64,000 nt of DNA. Origin: Phytoseiulus persimilis (Eukaryota; Arthropoda; Arachnida; Mesostigmata; Phytoseiidae). The position numbers were made by a program, and so were the translations under genes. Shown here one piece after another: positions 1 to 52,011 of the stretch; position 1 is the first letter of the stretch, and every line of letters begins with the position of its first letter. The notes below the pieces were generated by a model. It saw nothing but the letters and a program-made list of their open reading frames with translations. It had not been told where the DNA came from and searched no databases. The stretch lies in the NCBI GenBank assembly GCA_037576195.1, contig CM075103.1, forward strand, positions 29,162,723 to 29,226,722, written 5' to 3'.

Positions 1-594
1 CCGAATCTCGCATGCCGGGTTCGTCCAATGCGAGTCGCGCTTGAAATCGTCTGCTCAACTCGGTCTGGGGACGACCACCAACGGCCCCCGAGAAGTTTTC
101 CGTCGAGAAGTTCGCATCTCAGAGGGGAACGTGTCTTGGATGTCTCTCTTGCGCTTCAGAAATGCGTAGGATACACTCGGTACCGACCTCGTCCGTTGTC
201 CAGCTTTTGACATCTCGAGCCCAGCTCCCTCATTCTCAATTGGAAGTTCGGATTCCCCTAGGATCAGAGGAACTGAGGAAGACAGGTTATGGCCCCGGGG
301 AACATTTACCCATCCCCTCCCCAACTCAGCGATACCTGATCTCCATCCACGAGAGGTTTGCTTTCTGTAAATTTGATCTGCTGTTGGGGACATAGGGGGA
401 TTCGGGATGATTATCCTGGAATATCATGTTGTGTGCATGGTGGATGGATCATATGTGTTGAAGTTTCAGGTGCCCTGTGTGATAGCTGGAAATTTAGAGC
501 AGAACGTTCGGGAATTTGACTCACTCGATCAGGGGGGCGATCAGAAACAAGAACGCTGTAGGGCCGGGTTTGATGAAGTCCGATATGCATTTGA
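1..594. repeat. Tail of a preceding tandem unit (U0)
   Basis: Base 1 aligns with base 12,344 of the next unit, so the window opens inside the array and at least one more unit, whole or partial, must lie to the left. This tail ends at the same junction (after catttgac) seen at 13,726, 26,826 and 39,926. It differs from the later copies by scattered substitutions and by a loss of about 788 bp that removes nearly all of the P450-B pseudogene. Confidence 0.85.
531..594 (-). pseudogene. Remnant of P450-B pseudogene (psiB0), mostly deleted
   Basis: Only a short P450 piece survives, reading IKPGPTAFLFLIAP on the minus strand. It is joined directly to sequence that normally lies beyond the 3' end of psiB. 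The lost block corresponds to about 12,875-13,662 in U1. The surviving residues match intact P450-B better than psiB1-3 do (Gly in KPGPT, Pro in LIAP), so this copy keeps ancestral bases that the other copies have lost. Confidence 0.8.
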
Positions 595-2560
595 CGCGGA
601 GCGCGTCAACTCGGCCCCAGCTCCAATCAGGCCCCGGGAGCCGAATTATTACGAATCGAATGATCTGATCGAGCGGAGCGAGTTCATCTGGTCTCTCGTT
701 TTGTACCATAAACGTGACAGATCAGCAGACGGGTTGGACCTCGTGGTTTCCTGATGTCATTGTCAATTGCATACACTGGCTTCACGGATTGGGTACTTGT
801 CGTTGCATGGTCGACTTCGACGAAGCTTGTCTACGCGTGCTCCAAGTTCAAGTTCGGGGGACTTACTTGGGCATGATACGTGAAATCGCAGTATCGATGG
901 AATAAGGAGATCAATCTAAGCTCCTAGTTTCCATCGACTTCCTTCGCTGATAATTATTCAAGGTTGATGCCAGTTGATCAATATTTTGAAAACAAAGAAC
1001 GACACGGCTGCGAGATCCCTATGCGGATTTCACGAAATCTACCACCGATCAAAACCAAGTTTTGTTCTATTTCACCACTATGAATAACTCATTCGTCGAG
1101 GACTGCCTCTGGGGGAATAGTGTAATGACGATGCAGGCCTCAGTTGGGCGCAAATACCTTTTATTTGTCCTCCATGATGAAGGAGGCTCATGTCAGTAGC
1201 TTACCGACCTTCGGCGATGCCCGGGGCGAACCTCCGGTCTGGTGCACCATGCGGGCTCGCGCGGAACTTCGATCTATGATGTAACAACATAATACCAATG
1301 TAATTCATATTCATGTGTAGGGATGTGATGAAGACACAATATGCAAGGGAGACCTCGGCATCTGATTATTCTTACACTCATTAGTCGACTTCAAGATTGA
1401 GCGATCGTGGAAAAACCGTCGGTGCGATCATATTCGTGGGTGATTCAGGAGAAGTTCTCTGGGAATCGCGCCAGGAATTCAATGAGAAATTCGGTTGCGG
1501 AGGCTTCCACGCTCTATACTATGAAACCGCGAGAGCTTGATATGACATCCATTGCGTTGAATTTCTGTAGCTTCCCGAAGCGACCAGGTTGACTGTTCAA
1601 CCCAACTGCGTTCTGACGGAACTCCTAGCGGGGTAGGGAGAAATCGAACCGAAAATTTCTAGCGGGCTCAGCGGTGCGAGAGTTTCGAGACGATATCTTC
1701 AATGTTGTGTTCGGAAGATCATGATTCGGGACGCGCATGCGCCCTGCTATTCTGAAACCAGAGGTTTGCGAAGAATAGAAATGTCTCTCGCGCTTCCCCT
1801 CCCTGATTCACCAGGAGATGATTGAAGTTATTTGACAGCGCGGACGTCCTTCCGACCGCTCATATTGTGAGTGATCAGATGGATTATCTCACAGAGTGTG
1901 TGAGCGCGTTTCTCCCACAGTCAGTGCCATCTTGATGCTCCTGCAGCCTTGATGCCCCCAGCGACCTGATGCCCGGGGCGGAGCGCCCCCGCCTCGCTAC
2001 GCTACTGTATAGGGGTCGCGGCTGAGTGAATATTGCAGAATTCGAGCTCCAGAGAGCCGGAAATGTTTTTTTTTTCCTTCCTATCAGTGTTTTTCTCGCT
2101 GGAAAGCGTTCCAATCACAAAACTGATGCTTCATCCGCGATCCACATGCCTCAGATGCTAAGCAAGAACCCACCCCTTCAAAGTCGAAGCAACTGGGGAT
2201 GGGAAATCGGGGACACAGTGGACCTGACGGGACGAAAAATTGACAGCGACAATCTCAGCGGGTGGGCGACGATGCTCGTATTCCGATCGGGGCTCAGCAG
2301 TTCACACAAGAACAGTATTATGAGTTATTTCTTAACTTATATTTCGGAATCTAGTCGAGAGATTATCGTGTTCCCAGTTCGAAAAGAGAGATCTCTGATT
2401 CGATAGAATCGGATCCAGAGGTTTGGTTGTTCGGACCTCCAGGTTCGTTTTGACCGACATCGGAAATATGACGCGAAAAACGGACTTCTCAGAAACTGGG
2501 CTGGATCTCGCATCCCAGTACGGCTCGATGACAGAGGAATATTTCCTTTAACTCCCCATG
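595..2560. other. No recognisable gene (also 13,727-15,690; 26,827-28,790; 39,927-41,890)
   Basis: About 2 kb of unit-specific sequence with only short, overlapping reading frames on both strands and no motif I recognise. A run of T lies near 2,066-2,076. Nothing here resembles a tRNA, rRNA or transposase. The same stretch recurs in every unit. Confidence 0.6.
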
Positions 2561-2562
2561 CC

Positions 2563-2658
2563 ATGAAGTGCGTATTTCTTCCGATCCTTCTCGTTGCAGC
2601 CTCGTTTATACTGAATACTGTTGGCCCATCCTGGCCCCATGATTCGACAGTACCCTGA
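2563..2658 (+). CDS. Small reading frame with a signal-peptide-like start (possible first exon)
   Basis: A 31-codon frame begins MKCVFLPILLVAASFILNTV: Met, Lys, then a hydrophobic core, the shape of a secretory signal peptide. It continues for about eleven residues to a stop. It could be a tiny secreted peptide, the first exon of an unrecognised gene, or chance. The same frame recurs at 15,694-15,789, 28,794-28,889 and 41,894-41,989. Because the units are so similar, that recurrence is not independent evidence of selection. Confidence 0.22.
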   Translation: MKCVFLPILLVAASFILNTVGPSWPHDSTVP

Positions 2659-2913
2659 GAGGTATAGGCAGCCAACGTTGGAAGAGATCTCCTCGAGCTT
2701 GTAAATGAATCGACGGTGAAGAACACACCGCGAAGGAATGAAAATAATGCCTGCTAATCCGTGCGGGTACTATTCAATGATGCTGTTGAAGCACTATTGA
2801 CTGAAGAGCTCGAGAATTTTTGTATCTCAGTACACCACCCCTTGGTCCGTTCTCATGAGGACTCAGGCCGAAGGAAATCGCGTTTAATACATGGGAATGA
2901 AATCGTTCTCAAC

Positions 2914-2919
2914 TTTATT
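2914..2919 (-). terminator. AATAAA polyadenylation signal candidate for the F-box/LRR-like gene
   Basis: AATAAA on the minus strand, about 200 bases past the stop codon of the acidic-repeat gene. It recurs at 16,045-16,050, 29,145-29,150 and 42,245-42,250. It is placed by motif and distance only. Confidence 0.45.
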
Positions 2920-3117
2920 GACAATACGGTGATCCTTCTGATCTTTAGGTTAAACGCACGTCTCTACCTAGGCTGAACAATCTAATATTCTACGCCAAGG
3001 ACTGAAGGAATCGCCAAGCGAGGAGGAGCAAGAGTCGGCCATCGGTTCCCCTCCCGAGAACTCGACTGGACAAGCTCCTGGTGATGTCAAGAGGGACGGG
3101 TGCAGCGGTCGGGTGTT

Positions 3118-3753
3118 TCACCCGGAGTAATACCCTTCTTCGATGTCCTCCTCTTCATCGACTCCTTCGTCCTCGTCGAACATGGGAGCATCGTCAATCT
3201 CAAAGATGGGAGCACCCTGTTCGTCAAAGATGGGAGCCTCGTCTTCCTGAAATATGGGGGCGACGTCTTCGTCAAACACAGGAGCTTTGTCTTCGTCGTC
3301 CGCGTCGTTCGGATCGGGGTCGAAGTGAACCTCCTCGAGATTCGTCAGCGTCCGCATAACGACCCGAACGTCCTCTTCCGTGAGTTTTGTGTTTCTCACA
3401 TCCAGGCTCCTGAGTTCGGAGCACTTCAGGATGAGATCCATCATCCACTGAGGAGGCGTCGAGCACCCCGACAGGTTCAACGCGCGGACGTTAGTCGGGT
3501 GCATCCCGACAAACATGAACATGTTCAAACTTAAGTTTGAACTGCGCAGCTCTGTCGTGAATCTGAGCGCGAGGCGCTCAAGCCTTCTGTTCGCGAGTCC
3601 CACAGCGACCCGCGTCTCGTCGTCGCTGTGCTCGAGGATTTTCTCGATCTCCTCGTCCTCAAGGTTCATCAGCTGCCCGGGGTTGGAAGCAACGTCCGGG
3701 AAGGCGAGCTGGTACAGCACGCGGCGGTCGGCGACATCGATCTCGTTTGCCAT
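3118..3753 (-). CDS. F-box/LRR-like protein with acidic C-terminal repeats, copy 1
   Basis: A 211-residue intracellular protein is predicted. Residues about 27-65 (LEDEEIEKILEH ... ANRRLERLA) resemble a weak F-box. Residues about 89-145 form one or two leucine-rich repeats (LNLSGC, LRSLDVRNT). Residues about 156-197 hold five 8-9-residue acidic repeats of the form AP-x-F-[DE], followed by an acidic tail. If the F-box call is right, it would act as a substrate adaptor of an SCF-type ubiquitin ligase. I chose the Met opening MANEIDV, where protein-like composition begins. The frame stays open upstream to 3,999, so a longer start is possible. This copy differs from copies 2-4 at several residues, for example Ile-Phe-Gln instead of Met-Phe-Glu in one acidic repeat. 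I do not recognise the family with certainty. Confidence 0.65.
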   Translation of the reverse strand: MANEIDVADRRVLYQLAFPDVASNPGQLMNLEDEEIEKILEHSDDETRVAVGLANRRLERLALRFTTELRSSNLSLNMFMFVGMHPTNVRALNLSGCSTPPQWMMDLILKCSELRSLDVRNTKLTEEDVRVVMRTLTNLEEVHFDPDPNDADDEDKAPVFDEDVAPIFQEDEAPIFDEQGAPIFEIDDAPMFDEDEGVDEEEDIEEGYYSG

Positions 3754-3999
3754 TTCGATATCAGCAGAGGAGCTTCCACTGGGAACTTCTCGAAGAAACT
3801 TGTGATTCGTTTCGAAGAGTTCAGTTGTCTGAAAAGACTGTGAGTCTGAGCAGCCTCCAACCGGGGTTTTAAGCACAGACTCTCTCCTCATTGAGTCGGA
3901 GAGTGTGAGGGGGTCGGAGGGGTTCACCCAAGATCGGTCGACACGGCGAAGTCGTTCTTGGCGGGGGCAGATTCTGGATCTGCTTTGGTCCCACCACAA

Positions 4000-5265
4000 C
4001 GAGACGATAACACCGAAATATTAGGGGTTCCACCCCAGTGATGAAGCGGTTCATGGGGTGAAGCTCCCATCTGTTACGAATCCAAACGGGGCTCCAGATA
4101 ATTTCTGGATTCTGTTACTTCCGGATACCCCTCGTACGAGCCTCCCGAGAGCTGACCAGCAAGAACAGAGCTACCGCTGAGAAGCGCATCCCGAGTGATT
4201 TACGCGAATCCACATCGATCAAAGTTCGAATTCCTCGCTCTTCGCCGCAGTCCGACAGGTTCAACGCAAGAACGGTCGAATCCTGGGCTCACTTTACAGA
4301 AGTTTCTCAAGGTCCTCGAATGCCCTTGCTCGGAGAATCCACAACCGCACTGAACAGCTCTCAACAGGCGATTCATTGGCCCCGCGATCGACTCGTGATT
4401 CTGATTCAACTCCGAACGAAAACCAGCGAAGCTCGACAATAAGACCTATTTCCCGGTACAACAGAAAATCAATTCGGGAAAATGAATGGAAGACTTGCTA
4501 TTTGTCCATAGTCTGCAGAACTTCTCAAGAACCAGCACCAGGGGTACCAAGAGACAAGGGGTACCTGCAAATTTTACTCTGTTGTTCCCGATTGTGAGGT
4601 TATTGTGGGGTTCTAGAGTTCTGGTCCTATAGCGTCAGCGAATGCAACACAAATACGAGCATGATCATGAGCGCGTACCGTAAGGCCTCATCGAATAGCA
4701 AGTTATTCGAATATTTCTTCAGAGGAGAGGTCGCCGATGGGTGTAACTTGTCGTGTAAGCTCAACTCGAGACCCGGTTCGCACTCCCAAAGATCCATGGA
4801 AATACATGATTCGTGATAGAAATTTCCCAGATATCCACAAGCACCTTTGAGGAAATATTTGAGCGACAGCATCAGAGAGATTCAAGTTCACACACACAGT
4901 GGAGCCGCGTGAGATCCCCGTGATCTCGTGTCTCCTGGTACTCCCGGGACTGGTTTTTGAGGAGTAATGCAAAGTTTGGAGAGATAGGAAGTCTTCCATG
5001 TATTTTCTTGGATCGATTTTCCTCCATAACGGAAATACTATTTCCCGCTACGCGTTACAACGGAGAAGAGGTCTGCCGACGACGTACGAAGCCTATCCTG
5101 GCCCAGCGGCGCTCCTCAGGAGCTCGTTCCTCTCGTATGGGAACTCGGCCTGCGAGCATCGAATGATGAATCCAAAGGCGGATCTTCTCCATGCTCGAGA
5201 AATTCCTCGTATATCAACGCCGCAATCCACGGAAGTCTCAATGCACGAACTAATCAGCCAGTGAA
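4000..5265. other. No recognisable gene (also in U2-U4 at +13,131, +26,231, +39,331)
   Basis: No supported gene. A short stretch near 4,250-4,280 (ccgacaggttcaacgc) resembles the LRR-coding part of the neighbouring gene near 3,468 and may be a decayed fragment of a second copy. This rests on roughly 20 bases and is weak. Confidence 0.4.
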
Positions 5266-5269
5266 CTCA

Positions 5270-5630
5270 GGGAGCACCGGGTGCCCGTCAACTGGGCTTC
5301 GCCGTCAACTGGGCTTCGCCGTCAACCGGGCCATGGCGTCAACTGGGCTTCGCCGTCAACCGGGCCATGGCGTCAACTGGGCTTCGCCGTCAACCGGACC
5401 ACGGGGTCAACAGGGGCCTTAACCTGATCTCACCGGATTCCCCCGCACGATTTCGAGTGCGCTGGCTGTCGCTCCGCTCGCTCGCCCGAGCCCTAACCTA
5501 ACCTCACCCAATCTCCCAATCCGCTTCAAGTCCGCTGCCTGCCGGTCCGCTCGGAAGTCGACGGCGAGGCCCAGTTGACGCCGGGGCCCGGTTGACGCCG
5601 CGGCTCAGCTGACGCGCTCCCGGGAGCACC
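5270..5630. mobile_element. Foldback-type non-autonomous element, copy 1
   Basis: The element is bounded by the 9-bp direct repeat gggagcacc (5,270-5,278 and 5,622-5,630), which looks like a target-site duplication. Just inside, the left arm is a minisatellite of 17-bp monomers alternating gtcaactgggcttcgcc and gtcaaccgggccatggc. The right arm (cccagttgac, cccggttgac, cagctgac) is the same motif in inverted orientation. The middle holds two diverged copies of an approximately 75-85-bp segment starting aacctgatctcacc and aacctaacctcacc. It has no coding capacity. Inverted arms made of short tandem repeats plus a 9-bp duplication match the structure of foldback elements. This copy has one 17-bp monomer more than the others. 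Confidence 0.7.
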
Positions 5631-5639
5631 AGATTCGTG

Positions 5640-6645
5640 GTTCAAAAGAGCTGGATTGGGAACCAGGCTCTATAACTAGTCTGGGAACAGATCTCCCTGG
5701 GTCGCCCGGCGAGGATGGTGCGTCATCTCAGACAAGGAGAAGTGATTCCCGTCGATCTGGCTCGAACGGTTCTCTGAAATTAGCTCCACCGCGTTTAAGG
5801 GACCGGTATGCATACGGACAAAGCTGTAACTGCGACGTACGGCTCCACATTCTGCCTCAGAAGAAATTCTGGGCTGGTCATCATCCTTCGACGCAATCAA
5901 CGGCCGGACGCTACGTCGCGGTCGAGTCGAGTTCTGCGTTTCGCTGTGTTACTGGTGGTGAGGTGAGGCGGGTCGCTTTGCTTTGCTCGCAGTCAGATCT
6001 TCGTGGAAACACGAAAGCAACAGCAGAGGCTCGCTGACTCCTGATATTAGGACACTATCCACTAAGTCCATGCAGTTCCATCATGAGTCTGTCTTCACCG
6101 CTAGGGAGCCTTGGCGACCTCTTTGCTCCGTTATGGAAGTCGGTAACTTGAGCCTTACGAAATTGAAATATATTGTTCTCACGTCCTTCTTAGTCCATCC
6201 GTCGGGTTTCGCTCCGAGAATCAAGGCGGATGATTACCCGACAAATTGCCGAGGGGCGGCTGGTTCCGAAGCAACTTGGATGGGAGTTGTGAATTGGCTC
6301 AACCTGCGAATTCATCAACAAGCCGACCTCCGGCTGACTGTAGTGGGCCGCGCTTCGCGGGGTTGGACTGCAGCTTCTGGCACGGAGAAGAATCGACCTC
6401 AGAACCACCTCCACAGACCCCAAAAAGTATGGTCGATGGACAACTGAATCACCTCTATGGACTCCAATGAGTCTGGTCAGATTGCTCCCGGGATAAGCTT
6501 ATCAAGCTCCGGAAAGTATTCCGTCAGATCGATCCCGGAATCACCTCCCTAAACCCGAAAAGTATGTTCAGATCGCTTCCGAATCCTCGCGTTCGAAATA
6601 TCAATTGAACTTCAGATGCGAGACGTTTCAGGGCACGATTCTCCT
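5640..6645. other. No supported gene; degenerate direct repeats at about 6,420-6,600
   Basis: No gene is recognised. At 6,420-6,600 three loosely similar blocks recur, each with an aaaagtat or gaaagtatt core followed by a tcagatcg-like stretch and a gaatcacctc-like stretch. They look like an old, decayed tandem repeat. The sequence recurs in the other units. Confidence 0.35.
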
Positions 6646-6649
6646 AGCC

Positions 6650-6760
6650 CAGAGGTCGTCAAACTGTGTGTCGCGACACACCAGGGTGCCGAGGGTGTCA
6701 CGGGGTGTCGCGAGGTGTCACGGGTAGCTGCGAGGTGTCACGGGGTGCTGCGGGGGCAGA
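6650..6760. mobile_element. hAT-like terminal sequence with palindrome and 21-bp repeats
   Basis: The block starts CAGAGGTCGTCAAACTGTG, which resembles the CAG-x-GGT-x-x-TCAAACT ends of Charlie/ZBED-type hAT elements. It contains the perfect 16-bp palindrome gtgtgtcgcgacacac (6,666-6,681). Next come three copies of an approximately 21-bp unit containing GTGTCACGGG. I found no matching inverted end and no transposase, so this may be a solo end or a deleted element. It recurs at 19,750-19,860, 32,849-32,959 and 45,950-46,060. Confidence 0.4.
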
Positions 6761-6779
6761 GACTGTTGAGAGGTGACTC

Positions 6780-7970
6780 CGGTTGACCTCAGGACCGTTC
6801 CAACTCAATCCGGCACGCTCTTACGAGGCAGAAGCTTTGACCGCCGACAACAATGCCTACTGGAGTTTGTCGAAGAAACATCGAATATCGTCCGTCTGGC
6901 AATTAGGTCGCGCCATTGAGGACCTGTTAGCACAAAGAACTACTATGTTTTCATCGAATACGTGCCGAACATGCATTAATTTGACGGCATTCCAACATAC
7001 TGGTGTGATAGTTTTAATAGGGCACAGACAGTGAGCTACTGTTCGAAATTCGCCATACCATCTGTACTGATTCAGAAGACGATGGAACCAACACTTGCGA
7101 AACGAGAATGAACGAAAGCAGTTGAGAGCACCGATCGTTTGTTTTGCTCGAGGTCGATTTCTACGCCTCGGCTCCCAAGGGCAGTTTTTCAGTTTTCCAA
7201 CCCGGACTGTCCAAACTTTTTTTCCGATCGATCTATCGCATTGTGTTCGCACCGAAGGGGGACATAATGTGGCAGGAACCAGGAAGTGGTCAACCTTTGG
7301 TTTTGGGTCAGAAACATTCACTTTGAAGTTGGTCATTTTGAAGGTATTCAAACTCGTCGTGGAAACTTTCTGAAGGATGCATCAGAGAGGTGGATCCGCG
7401 AGTTTTCCAAAATTCACCTCATGAGCTCTGTTTCATGCGGTTAGTCTCCAAATAACATAGATATGGGCTCCGAACCGAGACGGCATATGGCCCGCCGATT
7501 GGACATAGATAGTTCTTTTTGGAAGAGGAACCCGACCCAATAGATTCCGTTCGAATCCCCGACCAAAGGCCAAGAGTGCCGAGACTCTTCAGAACGAAAT
7601 TTGTCTCCTCGGACAAGAATCGCGGAGACCTTCCGAGGCACGGTATGCCTCTGGTCAACGATGACTGAAAACTCCTGGAAATGGTTAATATCTCGCCATG
7701 TTATCAAAACAGCTCGTCTCTCGGTGTCTTCGCAAAGGAGAACCAGGAGAAGCGGATTTCCTGCATATGTATTTGCTTCTACTCGTGCGTAGAACAACCG
7801 GAGTCCAGTGGTATTAATCGAATCCGCGAAACAACCCCTGGAATCAGCTAGCCCGGTGGGAACGCACAACCATTATCAGCTCCGTCGCTGCCAGAGCGGT
7901 CTTTCAGCACCTTCGCACGATCCTCAGAACTCGGTCCAGCCTCTATTATGATCATCCTAACCCCTTGATC
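6780..7970. other. No recognisable gene (3' side of P450-A)
   Basis: Two moderate minus-strand frames occur (6,857-7,351, 164 codons; 7,441-7,869, 142 codons). Neither resembles a protein I know, and both are rich in Cys, Arg and Ser in the manner of chance frames. This stretch would include the 3' UTR of P450-A. I found no clear AATAAA on the minus strand close to the stop. The other units hold the same sequence. Confidence 0.4.
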
Positions 7971-7973
7971 GTT

Positions 7974-9452
7974 TCAACTGCTCCCCGCGACCCTTGGAAC
8001 CAATTTGAGTATTAGCGGCTCCACCGTGATATCGTTCGCTCGCAGACCAGGTTTGATTTTGAGAGGCAACGCCGGCGTTCGTGCCGTCTTTTCGAATCTG
8101 AATCGCAACAGAAGCTGCGCGAGAAGAACCTGCATGTTCATCAACGCGAGCCGCTTCCCCACACAATTTTTCGGGCCCTGCCCAAACATCATGAAGGCGG
8201 TGAGCTCGCTCGGTGGTCCTTCTTGATTCTTGAGGAACCTCTCGGGTTTGAACTTCTCAGGCTCCGGGAAATATTCGGGATTATAGTGCATGTGGCAGAA
8301 ACCGGCTTCGACCACCATGCCCTTGTGGATTTCTTGACCCGCAACAACCGTGTCATTTGTGCAAACCCGATCGATCTGTCCTCCCATGGGCACAAGTCTC
8401 AAAGATTCAAGGAAGCAAGATTCCACGAACTTCATCTTTTGAAGATCGTTGTAATCGATGTCTGACTTGTCCCCAACGACAGACTTGATCTCTTCCAAGG
8501 CCCGCTCCTGAGCTTCGGGGAAGACGGTTAAGTAGTAGGTAGCCAGCTCCAGCGTCAACACTGTGTTATCGGTTCCGAGAAGGAACAAGAACGCTTGTGA
8601 GGCCAACATCTCATCGGTAAGGATTGTTTTAGGGTCGTCGCGTTGTGCGATCAGATGCAGATCGAGAATGTCGGCGGTCCCATTCTGGATGACTTCGTCG
8701 AGATTCTTCTTCTTGTCCTCGATGACGTGCTTGGTCAGTTTGGAGACGAAATTCACGACGTTTTTCGGCGGGAAATTAACGAATGGGATGTATCTGATGA
8801 GTTGTGGAGCGAGAAGGAAGAATAGAGATGCGGCTCCAGGTTTGAATATCTGGGTGGTGTTTTTGATAAAATCCGAGTCGGGGTTGTCGAGAGAGTTCAC
8901 ATCCATGCCCAACGCTATGGCCGTTGTCGAATCGATCGCGTACGCTTTCAGATACTGGTGCAGTGTCATCTCCCGATTGGCCAGCGAATCCAGTTTGTTC
9001 ATCACTCGTTTGGAGATGAGGTCGAGCTTCAAGATCATGCCTCGCATCTTCGAGGTGGTGAAGGTGAAACCCATGATCGTCCGAACGGCCTTCCAAAGAT
9101 CGTACGGGAGTTGAACGAGCGTGTTGTCCCACAGAGGTTCGCCACTCGAGAACTCGAAGGATCGGCTGAAGAAATTGTCGAACTGTTTGATGAAAACGTC
9201 CTTGACGTGCTCGACGTCAGTCACGACCAACGCTGGTCGGATTCCTCGATAAGAACCATACATCGGACCGTACCGGTCGCAAGCTTCGCGTTGGACTTCT
9301 GCGATCGGTCGTCGATGAATTTCCCACAGCAATCGGTACAAATAGCGCCAGTAGGGCTCATAAGGAATTCCTCTGCTCTTCCAAAACTGGCTGATTTGGG
9401 ACAATTTCACGATAATCAGGGCCACGAGCACTCCGAGGAAAACGAACCACAT
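7974..9452 (-). CDS. Cytochrome P450, CYP3-clan type (P450-A1)
   Basis: A complete, intron-free gene for a 492-residue microsomal haem-thiolate monooxygenase. It has an N-terminal membrane anchor (about residues 2-20), an I-helix with GTDNT at 293-297, the K-helix ExxR at 349-352 (ESLR), PERF at 403-406 and the haem signature FGQGPKNCVG at 423-432 with Cys430 as haem ligand. Length and C-terminus fit the CYP3 clan, whose members often oxidise xenobiotics or endogenous lipophilic substrates; the actual substrate cannot be inferred. An oddity is that the residue expected to be the oxygen-activating Thr after the I-helix acid is Asn296. The start Met is followed directly by the anchor and has A at -3. 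The protein is identical to A2 and A3. Confidence 0.95.
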   Translation of the reverse strand: MWFVFLGVLVALIIVKLSQISQFWKSRGIPYEPYWRYLYRLLWEIHRRPIAEVQREACDRYGPMYGSYRGIRPALVVTDVEHVKDVFIKQFDNFFSRSFEFSSGEPLWDNTLVQLPYDLWKAVRTIMGFTFTTSKMRGMILKLDLISKRVMNKLDSLANREMTLHQYLKAYAIDSTTAIALGMDVNSLDNPDSDFIKNTTQIFKPGAASLFFLLAPQLIRYIPFVNFPPKNVVNFVSKLTKHVIEDKKKNLDEVIQNGTADILDLHLIAQRDDPKTILTDEMLASQAFLFLLGTDNTVLTLELATYYLTVFPEAQERALEEIKSVVGDKSDIDYNDLQKMKFVESCFLESLRLVPMGGQIDRVCTNDTVVAGQEIHKGMVVEAGFCHMHYNPEYFPEPEKFKPERFLKNQEGPPSELTAFMMFGQGPKNCVGKRLALMNMQVLLAQLLLRFRFEKTARTPALPLKIKPGLRANDITVEPLILKLVPRVAGSS

Positions 9453-9550
9453 CTTGTTTCTTTTCGCGAGAGTCTGTTAACAGAAGAAGTTTCCTCTCCA
9501 ACAGAGTAGCAGCGACTCGCATTCGTCAGCGCGCTACGGATCGTCGCTGA

Positions 9551-9676
9551 ATGACTCTCGGAGAGGGAAACACGATCGTCCTTGAAATGGCGCCGGGAGA
9601 AAGCATTTCAGACCCTGACAACAATGAAAGTTTGAGAAGCTCGTGTGATGCGTTAACTTGGCTCGGATATCCCCTC
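9551..9676 (-). promoter_or_regulatory. Conserved block upstream of P450-A (candidate promoter region)
   Basis: This block lies about 100-225 bases 5' of the P450-A start. It matches 48,851-48,976 upstream of the diverged A4 with only a handful of differences, whereas sequence on both sides is much less alike between the two loci. Conservation above background next to a gene start suggests regulatory function. I see no clear TATA box. Identical copies lie at 22,651-22,776 and 35,750-35,875. Confidence 0.35.
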
Positions 9677-9706
9677 ATTCGGTTTCATGCGATCCACCAT
9701 ACCGAA

Positions 9707-10069
9707 CTAGGGCGAGTTCGGAGATCCAACGTGTCGGGGAAATACTTCCTGTGGTGACCTTCGACTGGAATCATCGAGCGAAGCTCGCCTCTCACCGAAC
9801 AAGACCATAGCGAACGACTCCCACGCATGCTGAACAAGTATTCTGTCAGCGATGACTCGCACTGAATCGTATGGACTGCGATTCGACTCGGGGAGGTTGG
9901 AAAAGTCCTCCGAAAGTTCCAATATGTCCCGAGACGACAGGAACGATATCAGCTTGATGTCATCCTCTTCGAAATTCACGATGGATGGGGCATCCGTGAG
10001 ATTGAAACGACTCACGGGCGAAATGCTCTTCAAAAATTCGCGATTTCTCGACCGACGACGCTTGTTCAC
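9707..10069 (-). CDS. Hypothetical reading frame, weakly F-box-like, probably a relic
   Basis: A 120-codon frame contains the segment FLSSRDILELSEDFSNL and, at its start, NKRRRSRNREF. Both resemble the second half of F-box motifs. The counterpart in the diverged U4 (about 49,040-49,400) keeps KLISFPSSRDILVLS but has frameshifts, so at least that copy is dead. Copies lie at 22,807-23,169 and 35,906-36,268. It may be a fragment related to the acidic F-box/LRR-like gene. Whether it is expressed cannot be judged. Confidence 0.25.
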   Translation of the reverse strand: MNKRRRSRNREFLKSISPVSRFNLTDAPSIVNFEEDDIKLISFLSSRDILELSEDFSNLPESNRSPYDSVRVIADRILVQHAWESFAMVLFGERRASLDDSSRRSPQEVFPRHVGSPNSP

Positions 10070-10340
10070 AGAGGACAGGGCGATGAGTCGTCGATAACAA
10101 TATTTGAACGAGGCTCGAGGGCGCCGCTAACTGGTGAGTTGCAGTCAATTGAGAGCCGACCCGCGTCAACGTTGGTGGATGAGACTCAAACGCATTGACA
10201 CTGGCGGCATTCATCTCGGCTCACCGTATTTTTCCGTGGTGAGGCAACGCAATGGAGTCACATCCAGAAGATTTTTGAGCGATTCTACTGCTCAAGTTCA
10301 AACTTGAAGATACAGCGGCACTCCTGTCTGAAGAGTCAAG

Positions 10341-11280: not shown

Positions 11281-11344
11281 TGAAAAAATGTGATAATTTT
11301 AATTTTCGGAAAAAAAACGGGCAATATTTATTTCCATCTCTGAT

Positions 11345-12870: not shown

Positions 12871-12872
12871 AT

Positions 12873-42448: not shown

Positions 42449-43084
42449 TCACCCGGAGTAATACCCTTCTTCGATGTCCTCCTCTTCATCGACTCCTTCG
42501 TCCTCGTCGAACATGGGAGCATCGTCAATCTCAAAGATGGGAGCACCCTGTTCGTCAAAGATGGGAGCCTCGTCTTCCTCAAACATGGGGGCGACGTCTT
42601 CGTCAAACACGGGAGCTTTGTCTTCGTCGTCCGCGTCGTTCGGATCGGGGTCGAAGTGAACCTCCTCGAGATTCGTCAGCGTCCGCATAACGACCCGAAC
42701 GTCCTCTTCCGTGAGTTTTGTGTTCCTCACATCCAGGCTCCTGAGTTCGGAGCACTTCAGGATGAGATCCATCATCCACTGAGGAGGCGTCGAGCACCCC
42801 GAGAGGTTCAAAGCGCGGAGGTTAGTCGGGTGCATCCCGACGAACATGAACATGTTCAAACTTAAGTTTGAACTGCGCAGCTCTGTCGTGAATCTGAGCG
42901 CGAGGCGCTCAAGCCTTCTGTTCGCGAGTCCCACAGCGACCCGCGTCTCGTCGTCGCTGTGCTCGAGGATTTTCTCGATCTCCTCGTCCTCAAGGTTCAT
43001 CAGCTGCCCGGGGTTGGAAGCAACGTCCGGGAAGGCGAGCTGGTACAGCACGCGGCGGTCGGCGACATCGATCTCGTTTGCCAT
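42449..43084 (-). CDS. F-box/LRR-like protein with acidic C-terminal repeats, copy 4
   Basis: Protein identical to copies 2 and 3. It lies in the left, homogenised part of U4, about 4.2 kb 3' of P450-A4 on the same strand. The frame remains open upstream to 43,330. Confidence 0.65.
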   Translation of the reverse strand: MANEIDVADRRVLYQLAFPDVASNPGQLMNLEDEEIEKILEHSDDETRVAVGLANRRLERLALRFTTELRSSNLSLNMFMFVGMHPTNLRALNLSGCSTPPQWMMDLILKCSELRSLDVRNTKLTEEDVRVVMRTLTNLEEVHFDPDPNDADDEDKAPVFDEDVAPMFEEDEAPIFDEQGAPIFEIDDAPMFDEDEGVDEEEDIEEGYYSG

Positions 43085-44600
43085 TTCGATAATAGCAGAG
43101 GAGCTTCCACTGGGAACTTCTCGAAGAAACTTGTGATTCGTTTCGAAGAGTTCAGTTGTCTGAAAAGACTGTGAGTCTGAGCAGCCTCCAACCGGGGTTT
43201 TAAGCACAGACTCTCTCCTCATTGAGTCGGAGAGTGTGAGGGGGTCGGAGGGGTTCACCCAAGATCGGTCGACACGGCGAAGTCGTTCTTGGCGGGGGCA
43301 GATTCTGGATCTTCTTTGGTCCCACCACAACGAGACGATAACACCGAAATATTAGGGGTTCCACCCCAGTGATGAAGCGGTTCATGGGGTGAAGCTCCCA
43401 TCTGTTACGAATCCAAACGGGGCTCCAAATAATTTCTGGATTCTGTTACTTCCGGATACCCCTCGTACGAGCCTCCCGAGAGCTGACCAGCAAGAACAGA
43501 GCTACCGCTGAGAAGCGCATTCCGAGTGATTTACGCGAATCCACATCGATCAAAGTTCGAATTCCTCGCTCTTCGCCGCAGTCCAACAGGTTCAACGCAA
43601 GAACGGTCGAATCCTGGGCTCACTTTACAGAAGTTTCTCAAGGTCCTCGAATGCCCTTGCTCGGAGAATCCACAACCGCACTGAACAGCTCTCAACAGGC
43701 GATTCATTGGCCCCGCGATCGACTCGTGATTCTGATTCAACTTCGAACGAAAACCAGCGAAGCTCGACAATAAGACCTATTTCCCGGTACAACAGAAAAT
43801 CAATTCGGGAGAATGAATGGAAGACTTGCTATTTGTCCATAGTCTGCAGAACTTCTCAAGAACCAGCACCAGGAGCACCAAGAGACAAGGGATACCTGCA
43901 AATTTTACTGTGTTGTTCCCGATTGTGAGGTTATTGTGGGGTTCTAGAGTTCTGGTCCTATAGCGTCAGCGAATGCAACACAAATACGAGCATGATCATG
44001 AGCGCGTACCGTAAGGCCTCATCGAATAGCAAGTTATTCGAATATTTCTTCAGAGGAGAGGTCGCCGATGGGTGTAACTTGTCGTGTAAGCTCAACTCGA
44101 GACCCGGTTCGCACTCCCAAAGATCCATGGAAATACATGATTCGTGATAGAAATTTCCCAGATATCCACAAGCACCTTTGAGGAAATATTTGAGCGACAG
44201 CATCAGAGAGATTCAAGTTCACACACACAGTGGAGCCGCGTGAGATCCCCGTGATCTCGTGTCTCCTGGTACTCCCGGGACTGGTTTTTGAGGAGTAATG
44301 CAAAGTTTGGAGAGATAGGAAGTCTTCCATGTATTTTCTTGGATCGATTTTACTTCATAACGGAAATACTATTTCCCGCTACGCGTTATAACGGAGAAGA
44401 GGTCTGCCGACGACGTACGAAGCCTATCCTGGCCCAGCGGCGCTCCTCAGGAGCTCGTTCCTCTCGTATGGGAACTCGGCCTGCGAGCATCGAATGATGA
44501 ATCCAAAGGCGGATCTTCTCCATGCTCGAGAAATTCCTCGTATATCAACGCCGCAATCCACGGAAGTCTCAATGCACGAACTAATCAGCCAGTGAACTCA

Positions 44601-44944
44601 GGGAGCACCGGGTGCCCGTCAACTGGGCTTCGCCGTCAACCGGGCCATGGCGTCAACTGGGCTTCGCCGTCAACCGGGCCATGGCGTCAACTGGGCTTCG
44701 CCGTCAACCGGACCACGGGGTCAACAGGGGCCTTAACCTGATCTCACCGGATTCCCCCGCACGATTTCGAGTGCGCTGGCTGTCGCTCCGCTCGCTCGCC
44801 CGAGCCCTAACCTAACCTCACCCAATCTCCCAATCCGCTTCAAGTCCGCTGCCTGCCGGTCCGCTCGGAAGTCGACGGCGAGGCCCAGTTGACGCCGGGG
44901 CCCGGTTGACGCCGCGGCTCAGCTGACGCGCTCCCGGGAGCACC
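44601..44944. mobile_element. Foldback-type non-autonomous element, copy 4
   Basis: Same element in U4, with 9-bp repeats at 44,601-44,609 and 44,936-44,944. It has the same length and monomer order as copy 2. Confidence 0.7.
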
Positions 44945-47273
44945 AGATTCGTGGTTCAAAAGAGCTGGATTGGGAACCAGGCTCTATAACTAGTCTGGGA
45001 ACAGATCTCCCTGGGTCGCCCGGCGAGGATGGTGCGTCATCTCAGACAAGGAGAAGTGATTCCCGTCGATCTGGCTCGAACGGTTCTCTGAAATTAGCTC
45101 CACCGCGTTTAAGGGACCGGTATGCATACGGACAAAGCTGTAACTGCGACGTACGGCTCCACATTCTGCCTCAGAAGAAGTTCTGGGCTGATCATCATCC
45201 TTCGACGCAATCACCGGCCGGACGCTACGTCGCGGTCGAGTCGAGTTCTGCGTTTCGTGGTGAGGTGAGGCGGGTCGCTTTGCTTTGCTCGCAGTCAGCA
45301 CTTCGTGGAAACACGAAAGCAACAGCAGAGGCTCGCTGACTCCTGATATTAGGAGAATTCACGAAGTCCATGCAGTTCCATCATGAGTCTGTCTTCACCG
45401 CTGGGGAGCCTTGGCGACCTCTTTGCTCCGTTATGGAAGTCGGTAACTTGAGCCTTACGAAATTGAAATATATTGTTCTCACGTCCTTCTTAGTCCATCC
45501 GTCGGGTTTCGCTCCGAGAATCAAGGCGGATGATTACCCGACAAATTGCCGAGGGGCGGCTGGTTCCGAAGCAACTTGGATGGGAGTTGTGAATTGGCTC
45601 AACCTGCGAATTCATCAACAAGCCGACCTCCGGCTGACTGTAGTGGGCCGCGCTTCGCGGGGTTGGACTGCAGCTTCTGGCACGGAGAAGAATCGACCTC
45701 AGAACCACCTCCACAGACCCCAAAAAGTATGGTCGATGGACAACTGAATCACCTCTATGGACTCCAATGAGTCTGGTCAGATTGCTCCCGGGATAAGCTT
45801 ATCAAGCTCCGGAAAGTATTCCGTCAGATCGATCCCGGAATCACCTCCCTAAACCCGAAAAGTATGTTCAGATCGCTTCCGAATCCTCGCGTTCGAAATA
45901 TCAATTGAACTTCAGATGCGAGACGTTTCAGGGCACGATTCTCCTAGCCCAGAGGTCGTCAAACTGTGTGTCGCGACACACCAGGGTGCCGAGGGTGTCA
46001 CGGGGTGTCGCGAGGTGTCACGGGTAGCTGCGAGGTGTCACGGGGTGCTGCGGGGGCAGAGACTGTTGAGAGGTGACTCCGGTTGACCTCAGGACCGTTC
46101 CAACTCAATCCGGCACGCTCTTACGAGGCAGAAGCTTTGACCGCCGACAACAATGCCTACTGGAGTTTGTCGAAGAAACATCGAATATCGTCCGTCTGGC
46201 AATTAGGTCGCGCCATTGAGGACCTGTTAGCACAAAGAACTACTATGTTTTCATCGAATACGTGCCGAACATGCATTAATTTGACGGCATTCCAACATAC
46301 TGGTGTGATAGTTTTAATAGGGCACAGACAGTGAGCTACTGTTCGAAATTCGCCATACCATCTGTACTGATTCAGAAGACGATGGAACCAACACTTGCGA
46401 AACGAGAATGAACGAAAGCAGTTGAGAGCACCGATCGTTTGTTTTGCTCGAGGTCGATTTCTACGCCTCGGCTCCCAAGGGCAGTTTTTCAGTTTTCCAA
46501 CCCGGACTGTCCAAACTTTTTTTCCGATCGATCTATCGCATTGTGTTCGCACCGAAGGGGGACATAATGTGGCAGGAACCAGGAAGTGGTCAACCTTTGG
46601 TTTTGGGTCAGAAACATTCACTTTGAAGTTGGTCATTTTGAAGGTATTCAAACTCGTCGTGGAAACTTTCTGAAGGATGCATCAGAGAGGTGGATCCGCG
46701 AGTTTTCCAAAATTCACCTCATGAGCTCTGTTTCATGCGGTTAGTCTCCAAATAACATAGATATGGGCTCCGAACCGAGACGGCATATGGCCCGCCGATT
46801 GGACATAGATAGTTCTTTTTGGAAGAGGAACCCGACCCAATAGATTCCGTTCGAATCCCCGACCAAAGGCCAAGAGTGCCGAGACTCTTCAGAACGAAAT
46901 TTGTCTCCTCGGACAAGAATCGCGGAGACCTTCCGAGGCACGGTATGCCTCTGGTCAACGATGACTGAAAACTCCTGGAAATGGTTAATATCTCGCCATG
47001 TTATCAAAACAGCTCGTCTCTCGGTGTCTTCGCAAAGGAGAACCAGGAGAAGCGGATTTCCTGCATATGTATTTGCTTCTACTCGTGCGTAGAACAACCG
47101 GAGTCCAGTGGTATTAATCGAATCCGCGAAACAACCCCTGGAATCAGCTAGCCCGGTGGGAACGCACAACCATTATCAGCTCCGTCGCTGCCAGAGCGGT
47201 CTTTCAGCACCTTCGCACGATCCTCAGAACTCGGTCCAGCCTCTATTATGATCATCCTAACCCCTTGATCGTT

Positions 47274-48752
47274 TCAACTGCTCCCCGCGACCCTTGGAAC
47301 CAATTTGAGTATTAGCGGCTCCACCGTGATATCGTTCGCTCGCAGACCAGGTTTGATTTTGAGAGGCAACGCCGGCGTTCGTGCCGTCTTTTCGAATCTG
47401 AATCGCAACAGAAGCTGCGCGAGAAGAACCTGCATGTTCATCAACGCGAGCCGCTTCCCCACACAATTTTTCGGGCCCTGCCCAAACATCATGAAGGCGG
47501 TGAGCTCGCTCGGTGGTCCTTCTTGATTCTTGAGGAACCTCTCGGGTTTGAACTTCTCAGGCTCCGGGAAATATTCGGGATTATAGTGCATGTGGCAGAA
47601 ACCGGCTTCGACCACCATGCCCTTGTGGATTTCTTGACCCGCAACAACCGTGTCATTTGTGCAAACCCGATCGATCTGTCCTCCCATGGGCACAAGTCTC
47701 AAAGATTCAAGGAAGCAAGATTCCACGAACTTCATCTTTTGAAGATCGTTGTAATCGATGTCTGACTTGTCCCCAACGACAGACTTGATCTCTTCCAAGG
47801 CCCGCTCCTGAGCTTCGGGGAAGACGGTCAAGTAGTAGGTAGCCAGCTCCAGCGTCAACACTGTGTTATCGGTTCCGAGAAGGAACAAGAACGCTTGTGA
47901 GGCCAACATCTCATCGGTGAGGATTGTTTTGGGGTCGTCGCGTTGTGCGATCAGATGCAGATCGAGAATGTCGGCGGTCCCATTCTGGATGACTTCGTCG
48001 AGATTCTTTTTCTTGTCCTCGATGACGTGCTTGGTCAGTTTGGAGACGAAATCCACGACGTTTTTCGGCGGGAAATTAACGAATGGGATGTATCTGATGA
48101 GTTGTGGAGCGAGAAGGAAGAATAGAGATGCGGCTCCAGGTTTGAATATCTTGGTGGTGTTTTTGATAAAATCCGAGTCGGGGTTGTCGAGAGAGTTCAC
48201 ATCCATGCCCAACGCTATGGCCGTTGTCGAATCGATCGCGTACGCTTTCAGATACTGGTGCAGTGTCATCTCCCGATTGGCCAGCGAATCCAGTTTGTTC
48301 ATCACTCGTTTGGAGATGAGGTCGAGCTTCAAGATCATGCCTCGCATCTTCGAGGTGGTGAAGGTGAAACCCATGATCGTCCGAACGGCCTTCCAAAGAT
48401 CGTACGGGAGTTGAACGAGCGTGTTGTCCCACAGAGGTTCGCCACTTGAGAACTCGAAGGATCGGCTGAAGAAATTGTCGAACTGTTTGATGAAAACGTC
48501 CTTGACGTGCTCGACGTCAGTCACGACCAACGCTGGTCGGATTCCTCGATAAGAACCATACATCGGACCGTACCGGTCGCAAGCTTCGCGTTGGACTTCT
48601 GCGATCGGTCGTCGATGAATTTCCCACAGCATTCGGTACAAATAGCGCCAGTAGGGTTCATAAGGAATTCCTCTGCTCTTCCAAAACTGGCTGATTTGGG
48701 ACAATTTCACGATAATCAGGGCCACGAGCACTCCGAGGAAAACGAACCACAT
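47274..48752 (-). CDS. Cytochrome P450, CYP3-clan type (P450-A4, diverged copy)
   Basis: Complete 492-residue P450 that differs from A1-A3 at three residues: L41M (after the membrane anchor), Q201K and N234D. The last two lie in the F-G region, which in P450s often contacts substrate. All catalytic motifs are unchanged, including the unusual GTDNT. The substitutions lie in the 5' two-thirds of the gene (above about 47,820); the 3' part is identical to the other copies. The upstream sequence is like the other copies for only about 50 bases and then diverges sharply, so this copy may be controlled differently. Confidence 0.95.
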   Translation of the reverse strand: MWFVFLGVLVALIIVKLSQISQFWKSRGIPYEPYWRYLYRMLWEIHRRPIAEVQREACDRYGPMYGSYRGIRPALVVTDVEHVKDVFIKQFDNFFSRSFEFSSGEPLWDNTLVQLPYDLWKAVRTIMGFTFTTSKMRGMILKLDLISKRVMNKLDSLANREMTLHQYLKAYAIDSTTAIALGMDVNSLDNPDSDFIKNTTKIFKPGAASLFFLLAPQLIRYIPFVNFPPKNVVDFVSKLTKHVIEDKKKNLDEVIQNGTADILDLHLIAQRDDPKTILTDEMLASQAFLFLLGTDNTVLTLELATYYLTVFPEAQERALEEIKSVVGDKSDIDYNDLQKMKFVESCFLESLRLVPMGGQIDRVCTNDTVVAGQEIHKGMVVEAGFCHMHYNPEYFPEPEKFKPERFLKNQEGPPSELTAFMMFGQGPKNCVGKRLALMNMQVLLAQLLLRFRFEKTARTPALPLKIKPGLRANDITVEPLILKLVPRVAGSS

Positions 48753-48803
48753 CTTGTTTCTTTTCGCGAGAGTCTGTTAACAGAAGAAGTTTCCTCTCCA
48801 ACA

Positions 48804-50340
48804 GCGTCGCAACGACTCACAGCTGTCAACGCGCTGCGGATCGTCGCTGAGTGACTCTCGGAGAGGGAAACACGATCGTCCTTGAATCGGCGCCGGGAGA
48901 AAGCATTTCAGACCCTGACAACAATGAAAGTTTGGGAAGCTCGTGTGATGCGCTAACTTGGCTCGGATATCCCCTGACTCGTTCTCGTGCGATTCATCTC
49001 ACCGAACTAGGGCGAGTTCGGAGATCCAACGTGTCGAGGAAATACTTCCTGTGATGACCTCAAGCTGGAATGGTCGAGTAGTGCTCGCCTTTCAACGAAC
49101 AAGACCATAGCTGCCGACTGTCCCCGACTCCTGCGCATGCTGAACATGAATTCTGTCAGCGATGACTTGCATTCAATCGTATGTACTGCGATCCGACTTG
49201 GGGGGGGGGGGGGTAAAATCAGAAAGTACCAAAATATCCCGAGACGACGGGAACGAGATCAGTTTCAGTGCAGATGTAGTTGTCGTCGAGCTTAAGGATT
49301 GAGGGAGCTTCTGAGAGTTTGAAACACGGTCAAAATACTTGTGAAACTCTCGCGATTCTGTGACCGACCGAGCCCATTCACCAAGGACAGGGCGATGAAT
49401 CGTCGATAACAATATTTGAGCTTGGCTCGAGGGTGCCACTAACTGGTGAGTTGACCTCAGCTCTCAATTGAGAGCCAAGCCGCGTCAACGTCGCGACGTC
49501 GCTCGCTTGCTCCGCACTGAGTGTAGCCTGAAGGCTGGTATACGTAGGTGTTTGCCAACTTTTGGGACAGAAATCACGCAGATAGAGATCTGGTCGGGGC
49601 GGCCGCGTATCTCATAACCGCGGAGTCTCACGGAATCGAAGGCCGTGCAGTTGATTCATCTCTGGCATGCTCAGGACAGTGTAAACTCGAAGTCCATCTA
49701 TCACAGAAACCCACAGTGGGGCGAGACCCGCTGGTGGATGTGCGTTAGTTGGAGGATCGAGAAACGGTCAGGCATGCTCTCCAGTGGAACAATTAGCAGT
49801 GTGAATGCCATGACGAATATCAGTTTGATCAACTGGATGGGAAATTCCTTCAGTGTTAGCATTCTCTTGACATCAACTTTCGATTACAATTTATTTTTCA
49901 CCGGCACACTCGATTATACGGACCGTTTTGTCCTGGTATTCGAGTGGCTGGCAAAGTCAGGTCATTCTCAGACATCTCTGCGATGAAGATCCGATGGAAC
50001 TTGTGCTCTTATCTCATGCTCGACCTCTATTTGTGATAAAGGGATCCGATCCCAGTTTGCGTTGAGAGTCTTGGAATCCACAGGGACGCTCCTCCCATTT
50101 TTATTTCGCTCCGATAACTCTGAAACTGCCGACGGTGTGACTTTCTCCGGGCGCCCTGAGGGATCCGGAAAAACTGTTTTTTCACTCTGTTGCGAATCGA
50201 CGCCGATGAGTCGAGTGTCCTGCAGACCAGCTTCGGCTGTGATTTCCAAGTGCCGTGCGTGGCAGCTGTAAACGAAGAGTTTTCGCATGCAAGCGAACGC
50301 GATTCTCCCACGCAGGCAGAGTCCCCATTCGTCGACTCAA
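48804..50340. other. Diverged intergenic region between P450-A4 and P450-B; no mariner
   Basis: Homologous to 9,504-10,172 plus 11,344-11,970 of U1 but much more diverged. It keeps recognisable stretches (ataacaatatttga, aattagcagtgtg). A run of 14 G lies at 49,200-49,213. Position 49,492-49,698 has no counterpart in the other units. An AATAAA on the minus strand at 49,890-49,895, about 450 bases past the P450-B stop, is a possible polyadenylation signal. Confidence 0.6.
48851..48976 (-). promoter_or_regulatory. Conserved block upstream of P450-A4
   Basis: Counterpart of the block at 9,551-9,676, in the otherwise diverged flank of the last unit. It keeps the segment around gacaacaatgaaagtttg and the segment taacttggctcggatatccc. 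Its position relative to the P450 start is the same as in the other units. Confidence 0.35.
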
Positions 50341-51816
50341 TCACCCGAGAGCCTCAGCGGTTCTCGGGACGAATCGCAAAACGATGGGTTCCGCCGTTAT
50401 ATTGCTCGACTGGAGCCCAGGCTTGAGTTTCAGAGGCATCTTCGGCGTATTTTCGGTTGGCCCCAGCTTGAATCGCAGCAGGAGGTTGGCCAGCATCACC
50501 TGCATGTTCATCACCGCGAGGCGCTTTCCCACACAGTTCTTCGGTCCTTGCCCGAACATCATGTAGGCTCCGAGTTCATTAGGAGGACCATCCTTCAGGA
50601 ACCTTTCGGGCTTGTATTTTTCAGGTTCCGGGAAATACTCAGGATTGTGCTGCATGTAAGGGAAGTTGACTTCCACCACCATGCCCTCGGGAATCTCTTG
50701 GCCGGCGACAACTGTCTTCGAGCGGCAAACACGATCCATGAATCCAGCCATGGGCACGAGGCGGAGGGTTTCGAGAACGGAAGCCTCCAGGAACTTCATC
50801 TTCTGCAGATCTTCGTAATCCAACGTAGCTCTGTTTTCGACCACCGATCTGATCTCCTTGTGAGCTCGCTCTTGAGCTTCGGGACAGACGGTCAAGAAGT
50901 AGATGGTCAAATCCAGAGTCATAGCTGTGTTGTCGGAGCCGAGAATGAACAGAAAAGCCTGCGAGGCCAACATTTCGTCCGTCAAAATCGAATTCGGATC
51001 ATCGCGCTGCGCTATCAGATGCAGATCGAGGATATCGGCCGTTCCGTTCCTTACAACCTCGTCTAGGTTTCCCCGCTTGGCTTTCAGCACTTGCCCGGTC
51101 AGTTCGGTGATGAACTTCACCAATCTCTTGGGTGGGAAATGGATGGAAGGTATGTATCGAACGATTCTCGGTGCGATCAGAAACAAGAACGCTGTGGGCC
51201 CGGGTTTGATGAGGTCCGATGTGCATTTGACAAAATCGCTATCTGGGTTCTCGAGGGAGTTGACGTCCATTCCGAGAGCTATCGCCGCGATCGAGTCGAT
51301 GGAATATTGTTTCAGAAGTTTACTAACAGAAGTTTCTTCGTCAGCGATCAAATGAATCTTGCTCATTAATCTCTTGCTGATCACATCGAGCTTGAGGATC
51401 ATTCCTCGCATCTTTGCAGTAGTGAACGTAGAGCCCATTATCGTTCGAACAGCTTTCCAGTGGTCGTAAGGTAAGTGGAGGATCATGTTGTCCCACAGGG
51501 GTTCGCCCGTCGAGAACTCCATCGAACGGTTGAAGAAATTCTCGAACTGTTTGATGAACACCTCCTTCACATGTTGGACTTCAGTCAACACCAGAGCGGG
51601 CTTCAGTCCTCGGTAGGAGCCGTATGTGGGTCCATAGCGGTTGCAAGTCTCGCACATGACTTCCGGAATCGGTCGCCGATGGATCTGCCACAACATTCGG
51701 TACAAATATCGCCAATAGGGCTCGTATGGAATGCCCCTTGATTTCCAAAACAGACTGACTTTGATAAATTTCACGACTAGTATTCCGACGAGCGCAGCCA
51801 GAAAAACAAACCACAT
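50341..51816 (-). CDS. Cytochrome P450, CYP3-clan type (P450-B), intact
   Basis: A complete, intron-free gene for a 491-residue microsomal P450 that is clearly similar to P450-A along its whole length, so the two are old tandem paralogues. It has an N-terminal anchor (MWFVFLAALVGILVV), I-helix GSDNT, K-helix ETLR with Glu349, PERF, and haem signature FGQGPKNCVG with Cys428. Like P450-A it has Asn where the I-helix usually has its Thr. I chose the Met aligning with the P450-A start. The frame is open upstream to 52,011, giving a 556-residue alternative, but those 65 residues are not membrane-anchor-like and would place the anchor internally. It is the source of the headless psiB copies. Confidence 0.94.
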   Translation of the reverse strand: MWFVFLAALVGILVVKFIKVSLFWKSRGIPYEPYWRYLYRMLWQIHRRPIPEVMCETCNRYGPTYGSYRGLKPALVLTEVQHVKEVFIKQFENFFNRSMEFSTGEPLWDNMILHLPYDHWKAVRTIMGSTFTTAKMRGMILKLDVISKRLMSKIHLIADEETSVSKLLKQYSIDSIAAIALGMDVNSLENPDSDFVKCTSDLIKPGPTAFLFLIAPRIVRYIPSIHFPPKRLVKFITELTGQVLKAKRGNLDEVVRNGTADILDLHLIAQRDDPNSILTDEMLASQAFLFILGSDNTAMTLDLTIYFLTVCPEAQERAHKEIRSVVENRATLDYEDLQKMKFLEASVLETLRLVPMAGFMDRVCRSKTVVAGQEIPEGMVVEVNFPYMQHNPEYFPEPEKYKPERFLKDGPPNELGAYMMFGQGPKNCVGKRLAVMNMQVMLANLLLRFKLGPTENTPKMPLKLKPGLQSSNITAEPIVLRFVPRTAEALG

Positions 51817-52011
51817 TTTGCTGGTGGCGTGGATCTCACTCGAACTGACTTTCTTCCAGGCAGCGGCCGAATCGAGCTGGTGTGCCAAGTTGACAGCCGT
51901 CACCTTGGCTGTGGCGAGGGAACCCGTGACCTTGGCAGACGAGCAGAAGCAGCATCGTTCCTCTCTGATGTTCAGTCTTTGCCTCGCGCTCGCCATCGGT
52001 GATGTTTTCAA

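Follow-up and report, generated by a model that had tools for sequence, protein, structure and literature searches.

Structure of the P450-A Array

The cytochrome P450 gene P450-A is clearly arranged in tandem in this assembly, and the present uniformity of the repeat units looks like the product of recombination between them, acting on an array whose founding duplication is much older than one would judge from how closely the P450-A copies agree. We analyzed a window of 64,000 bases (G000:C3:29162723-29226722; G+C content 51%) in an assembly of 181 Mb and 127 contigs, and the borders of the array were mapped with 40 kb added on the left of the window and 20 kb on the right. Self-comparison of the window gave one long direct repeat of 35.9 kb, 535-36371 against 13666-49491, with 99.38% identity; at 99.4% identity across 35.9 kb, a chance repeat was ruled out. 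The junctions at 13,726, 26,826, and 39,926 are identical in sequence, and the units lie head-to-tail, which is the arrangement of a tandem amplification. The units and their P450-A copies are as follows (window coordinates).

1..595: right end of the partial unit U0, which starts upstream at -4562 and carries P450-A0
596..13726: full unit U1, 13,131 bases, with 42 private gap-free substitutions, all at 865-6103
13727..26826: full unit U2, 13,100 bases, hybrid, left part of U4 type and right part of U1 type
26827..39926: full unit U3, 13,100 bases, hybrid like U2, left part of U4 type and right part of U1 type
39927..49491: partial unit U4; past about 49491 only diverged homology, leading into intact P450-B
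-4370..-2871 (G000:C3:29158352-29159851), minus strand: P450-A0, open, upstream of the window
7974..9476, ATG at 9452, minus strand: P450-A1, a single open frame, apparently intronless, CYP3 clan
21074..22576, minus strand: P450-A2, DNA identical to A1
34173..35675, minus strand: P450-A3, DNA identical to A1
47274..48776, minus strand: P450-A4, 9 bases and 3 residues different from A1, with a diverged 5' flank

The first-pass annotation had described four open P450-A copies in a repeat of about 13.1 kb, and indeed three full units and a partial fourth each contain an open, apparently intronless frame of the CYP3 clan. The units had also been said to repeat at offsets of 13,100 bases. U2 and U3 are of this length, but U1 is not equal to the other units, being 13,131 bases long and set apart from U2-U4 by 42 gap-free sites. 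The expectation that the array extends to the left of the window proved correct, since the partial unit from -4562 to 595 holds the further open copy A0. The right limit previously assigned to the array, 51231, marks where a decayed P450-B fragment ceases to match intact P450-B.

A genome search with P450-A listed 90 matches (86 of 139 candidates were scored, so the counts of weak matches are lower bounds). Among these listed matches, P450-A has five copies in total, with identities of 99-100% and all at the array; none was listed on an unplaced contig, and the next matches were P450-B at 68% and then an isolated relative with 48% identity at a distance of 1.3 Mb. A1, A2, and A3 had been described as encoding the same protein, and they are identical even in DNA (1,500 of 1,500 bases compared). 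A0 differs from these three at 7 of 1,500 bases and from A4 at 16. The possibility that P450-A is a pseudogene was rejected because all five copies are open. Four of the seven substitutions between A0 and A1 change an amino acid, and the resulting dN/dS of 0.39, from tiny counts, does not amount to strong purifying selection. Separately, the unplaced contig C126 repeats two P450 matches of C2 at 5.70 Mb with the same scores; thus, the assembly may hold some duplicate contigs, none of them with P450-A among the listed matches.

Hybrid Units between U1 and U4

The distribution of unit-specific sites revealed a mosaic. In gap-free columns, all 42 U1-private substitutions are located at 865-6103, all 124 U4-private substitutions are located at 8529-10160, and U2 and U3 have no private substitutions. 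The U4-private counts past 9500 come from a MAFFT alignment through diverged DNA, but the 9 sites that lie no further than 9476 are by themselves enough to uphold the separation, and the perfect separation of 42 U1-private and 9 U4-private sites up to this position has a chance of 3e-10 under random order. This pattern indicates that U2 and U3 resemble U4 in their left part and U1 in their right part, with the switch bracketed as follows.

6104..8528 (U1 coordinates): switch from U4 type to U1 type, 2.4 kb, identical in all four units

Two other histories were considered and rejected. Serial duplication without recombination conflicts with the perfect separation of the private sites, and false duplication of two whole haplotypes predicts two full copies rather than single-switch hybrids, with no unplaced P450-A among the 90 listed matches. 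We proposed instead that unequal crossing-over between a U4-type unit and a U1-type unit within 6104-8528 would have generated a hybrid lying between both, and that a second, late event would have doubled this hybrid to give U2 and U3. Along their 13.1 kb, these two units are free of substitutions and are told apart by two 1-base indels, the first of which falls in a run of G and the other in a run of T; at substitution rates of 1e-8 to 2.8e-9, their separation would date to less than about 11,000 to 41,000 generations ago.

It is unlikely, in our judgment, that the hybrids were instead written by an assembly loop, with fewer central units in the animal than in the assembly (a single one, or none at all). 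A path through the identical core, the right part of U1, the junction, the left part of U4, and the core again, if walked too often, would yield exactly the hybrids U2 and U3: a graph loop walked three times instead of once writes U1-left, core, U1-right; then U4-left, core, U1-right twice; and then U4-left, core, U4-right. The absence of both private sites and substitutions from U2 and U3 would be expected from such a loop, as would the identity of 6104-8528 in all four units. The two indels between U2 and U3 argue against it, although they are located in homopolymer runs and are perhaps consensus noise. In addition, the identical core is merely 2.4 kb, a length normally spanned by long reads, and again the 90 listed matches contain no unplaced P450-A copy. 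A0, A1, and A4 are less open to this doubt because distinguishing sites are located in or beside them, whereas the number of central units (U2 and U3) in the animal is a provisional figure taken from the assembly.

Probable Homogenization of the P450-A Copies

The P450-A copies differ at 0-16 of 1,500 bases, whereas divergence rises to about 30% in the DNA flanking the outer copies. Between U1 and U4, no differences were found across 6104-8528 and 9 in the remainder of the gene, and upstream the divergence rises to as much as 16 of 50 bases, about 500 bases 5' of the ATG. Between U0 and U1, 49 of 179 aligned bases differ in the 3' flank of the gene, where the alignment is gappy, and in the other flank the divergence climbs from less than 1% to about 7% per 100 bases. 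U1, U2, and U3 show no substitutions across 6104-13726, the 5' flanks of A1-A3 included. The dS values among the P450-A copies are 0.009-0.028. Thus, the gene is far more alike than its flanks, synonymous sites included, which points to conversion or crossing-over rather than protein-level selection alone.

Age of the Founding Duplication

The right side of the array leads into a related gene, P450-B, and a broken piece of this gene closes each full unit.

50341..52122, ATG at 51816, minus strand: P450-B, open frame, 68% identical to P450-A
12866..13726, minus strand: decayed fragment of P450-B that closes U1, from the C-terminal part, with two TGA codons and a heme-loop motif with a gap and changes
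25966..26826, minus strand: decayed fragment of P450-B that closes U2, a repeat of the one in U1
39066..39926, minus strand: decayed fragment of P450-B that closes U3, a repeat of the one in U1

P450-A and P450-B have a dN/dS of 0.097, with dS of 2.2 near saturation. The decayed fragment shows 82.4% DNA identity and 67% protein identity to intact P450-B, and U0 is without about 790 bases matching most of this fragment. The presence of a broken and diverged P450-B fragment at the unit ends indicates that the founding duplication split a P450-B copy. The first-pass annotation had interpreted the locus as a gene-dose amplification; its tandem array stands in the assembly, but a simple recent event does not agree with a founding duplication that is old and with a uniformity that looks recombination-made.

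We consider the following history, taken as a whole, to be rather probable. The CYP3-clan array would have been born by an old duplication with one breakpoint within the neighboring P450-B; unequal crossing-over and gene conversion among units would since have kept the P450-A copies nearly identical, with the hybrid arising and doubling along the way as proposed above; and protein-level selection would hold all five copies open. The likely benefit would be more transcript from copies that would share a promoter.

The LRR-Like Gene and the Neighborhood of the Array

The units carry a second open gene, labeled LRR-like from a reading of its sequence.

3118..4020, minus strand: LRR-like gene of U1, open frame
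16249-17151, 29349-30251, and 42449-43351: LRR-like copies of U2, U3, and U4, open as in U1
G000:C3, 28.89-29.13 Mb (broadly 28.9-29.2 Mb) and 38.42-38.77 Mb (broadly 38.4-38.8 Mb): two LRR-like clusters on opposite strands

The LRR-like protein gave no Pfam match and only weak matches to the PDB (E = 0.047 for a ribosomal protein and 0.1 for an LRR protein). At least 136 matches to its family were listed (131 of 319 candidates scored), these being exon pieces rather than genes. Most fall in the two opposite-strand clusters of this chromosome; a few others lie outside them, on C3, C4, and C120. A single cluster may have been split in two by an inversion. The second cluster lies less than 0.5 Mb from the contig end. 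In the clusters, matches are often 347 bases apart. The P450 array is located at the edge of the first cluster, which comes as close as about 30 kb to the window, and recombination in this neighborhood may have started the array.

All four window copies of the LRR-like gene are likewise open, so P450-A need not be the selected gene. Recombination in a repeat-rich neighborhood could have made the array with P450-A as a passenger, or with the LRR-like gene as the target of selection; the LRR-like family is large and clustered near the array, and other dispersed repeats are present within the unit. We nevertheless assign this reading a low probability, because P450-A is open in five of five copies, including A0, whose partial unit is without the LRR-like gene, and because the P450-B fragment adjoining P450-A decayed within the same array. 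The position of A0 in such a unit indicates that the P450 gene is not a mere passenger of the LRR-like gene in every copy.

Enzyme Family and Altered I Helix

P450-A matches PF00067 (E = 1.4e-80), and its heme loop FGQGPKNCVG, ESLR (ExxR), and PERF motifs are intact. Against the PDB, the best 14 of 60 rows for P450-A are CYP3A4/3A5/3A7 (E = 2e-59 to 2e-57), and the next row, CYP4B1 at 1.1e-28, is weaker by about 29 orders of magnitude; P450-B gave the same pattern. The earlier assignment to the CYP3 clan is thus upheld in the sense that, in this PDB ranking, CYP3A4/3A5/3A7 are the closest among solved P450s.

The canonical P450 I-helix motif is [AG]-G-x-[DE]-T-[TS], and P450-A departs from this monooxygenase motif with L-G-T-D-N-T. 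The I helix reads FLFLL-GTDNT in P450-A and FLFIL-GSDNT in P450-B, whereas CYP3A4 has one residue more and Thr in place of Asn. For comparison within the genome, 30 P450 loci were taken, of which 27 gave readable rows (L032, L034, and L042 were not among them). Nine of these 27 rows are P450-A, P450-B, or a P450-B fragment; among the other 18, L030 and L043 represent one frame, and L044 (unalignable there) and L040 (four stops) were left out of the count, leaving 15 genes. The extra residue is present in 10 of 10 paralogs aligned in the P450-A register, while L035, L037, L038, L039, and L041 align in another register and are uninformative on this residue. At the position of the Asn of P450-A and P450-B, Thr was found in 14 of 15 paralogs and Ser in L025. 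The ordinary I-helix form is also seen in L021, the 48% relative, and the interrupted copy L040 has the extra residue and lacks the Thr.

Because the altered I helix is common to P450-A, P450-B, and the P450-B fragments, the change predates the split of the two genes and was retained in both. Ordinary detoxifying chemistry cannot be assumed for an enzyme with such an atypical helix, although its membership in the P450 family is unaffected. Exceptions exist, as P450cin has an altered motif and is still a monooxygenase. Our literature search found no publication matching an altered I helix of this kind. It is conceivable, though we hold it to be doubtful, that the array increases the dosage of a P450 with a rebuilt oxygen-activation site, which would catalyze a specialized non-standard reaction rather than xenobiotic detoxification; candidates may be an isomerase-type reaction, a peroxide-type reaction, or a step in the synthesis of a secretion or hormone. 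A recent amplification under selection by a pesticide or a plant toxin, along the lines of the resistance or host adaptation raised in the first-pass annotation, could also be the last step of the history that we favor. It would fit the CYP3-clan membership, the published arthropod cases, and the very recent origin that sequence suggests for U2 and U3, but it is distinctly improbable given that the first duplication is old, from the 82% identity of the P450-B fragment, and that the I-helix motif is atypical.

Comparison with Known P450 Amplifications

The P450-A array belongs with the known tandem P450 amplifications, a well-known route to higher gene dose, and its recombination history is more interesting than a simple gain in dose. 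In Myzus persicae nicotianae, the segment with CYP6CY3 and CYP6CY4 is repeated directly in tandem, its junction holds a gene fusion, and its passenger genes decay (PMC7202869). Both systems have direct repeats with a P450 and its neighbors, broken genes at junctions, and passenger decay. They differ in that the aphid unit is about 325 kb, with copy number from qPCR and placement by FISH, compared with 13.1 kb analyzed from sequence here, and in that the founding duplication here is old and the copies appear homogenized.

The P450 copy number is likewise raised in the mite Psoroptes ovis, where copy-number gains of CYP and UGT genes were described, the CYP gain only in resistant populations, and where the authors suggested unequal crossing-over for the UGT genes (PMC12364353). 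That CYP gain is linked to resistant populations and has several possible insertion places, whereas the present array has one place in one genome. In the predatory mite Metaseiulus occidentalis, CYP genes also form tandem arrays, of 2-3 genes, and CYP3 is the largest clan; the available portion of that report contains no near-identical five-copy array with hybrid units (PMC4965064). A literature search without the species name, and mostly by title, returned no description of the present array, and among the 8 of 12 titles listed for concerted evolution of P450 arrays, none indicated such an array.

The array would have been caught between an old duplication and continuing homogenization, with the decayed gene fragment dating the first step and the 2.4-kb bracket placing the switch behind the hybrid units. 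Should the copy number be borne out, the array would offer a test of the trade-off between dose and concerted evolution in a detoxification-type gene family, and a test of whether amplification can target a P450 whose I helix is altered.

Other Features of the Region

A dispersed repeat of about 770 bases is present at window positions 1180-1963 and in each of U1-U4, and also on C1-C4 and C84; its copies are mostly 78-89% identical, with one at 70% (40 of 1451 candidates scored). Upstream of the window, repeats of about 45 bases stand in tandem from -39999 to -38687 (L012), and copies displaced by multiples of this period are 87-98% alike. When 7 more open frames within the unit were compared with Pfam, a single match was obtained, to P450 in the P450-B fragment, and 10 frames of at least 150 residues to the right of the array gave no match. 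Two shorter open frames there, at 58912-59154 and 59622-60014 (minus strand), have chitin-binding Peritrophin-A domains (PF01607), in agreement with the Gasp-like gene named in the first-pass annotation.
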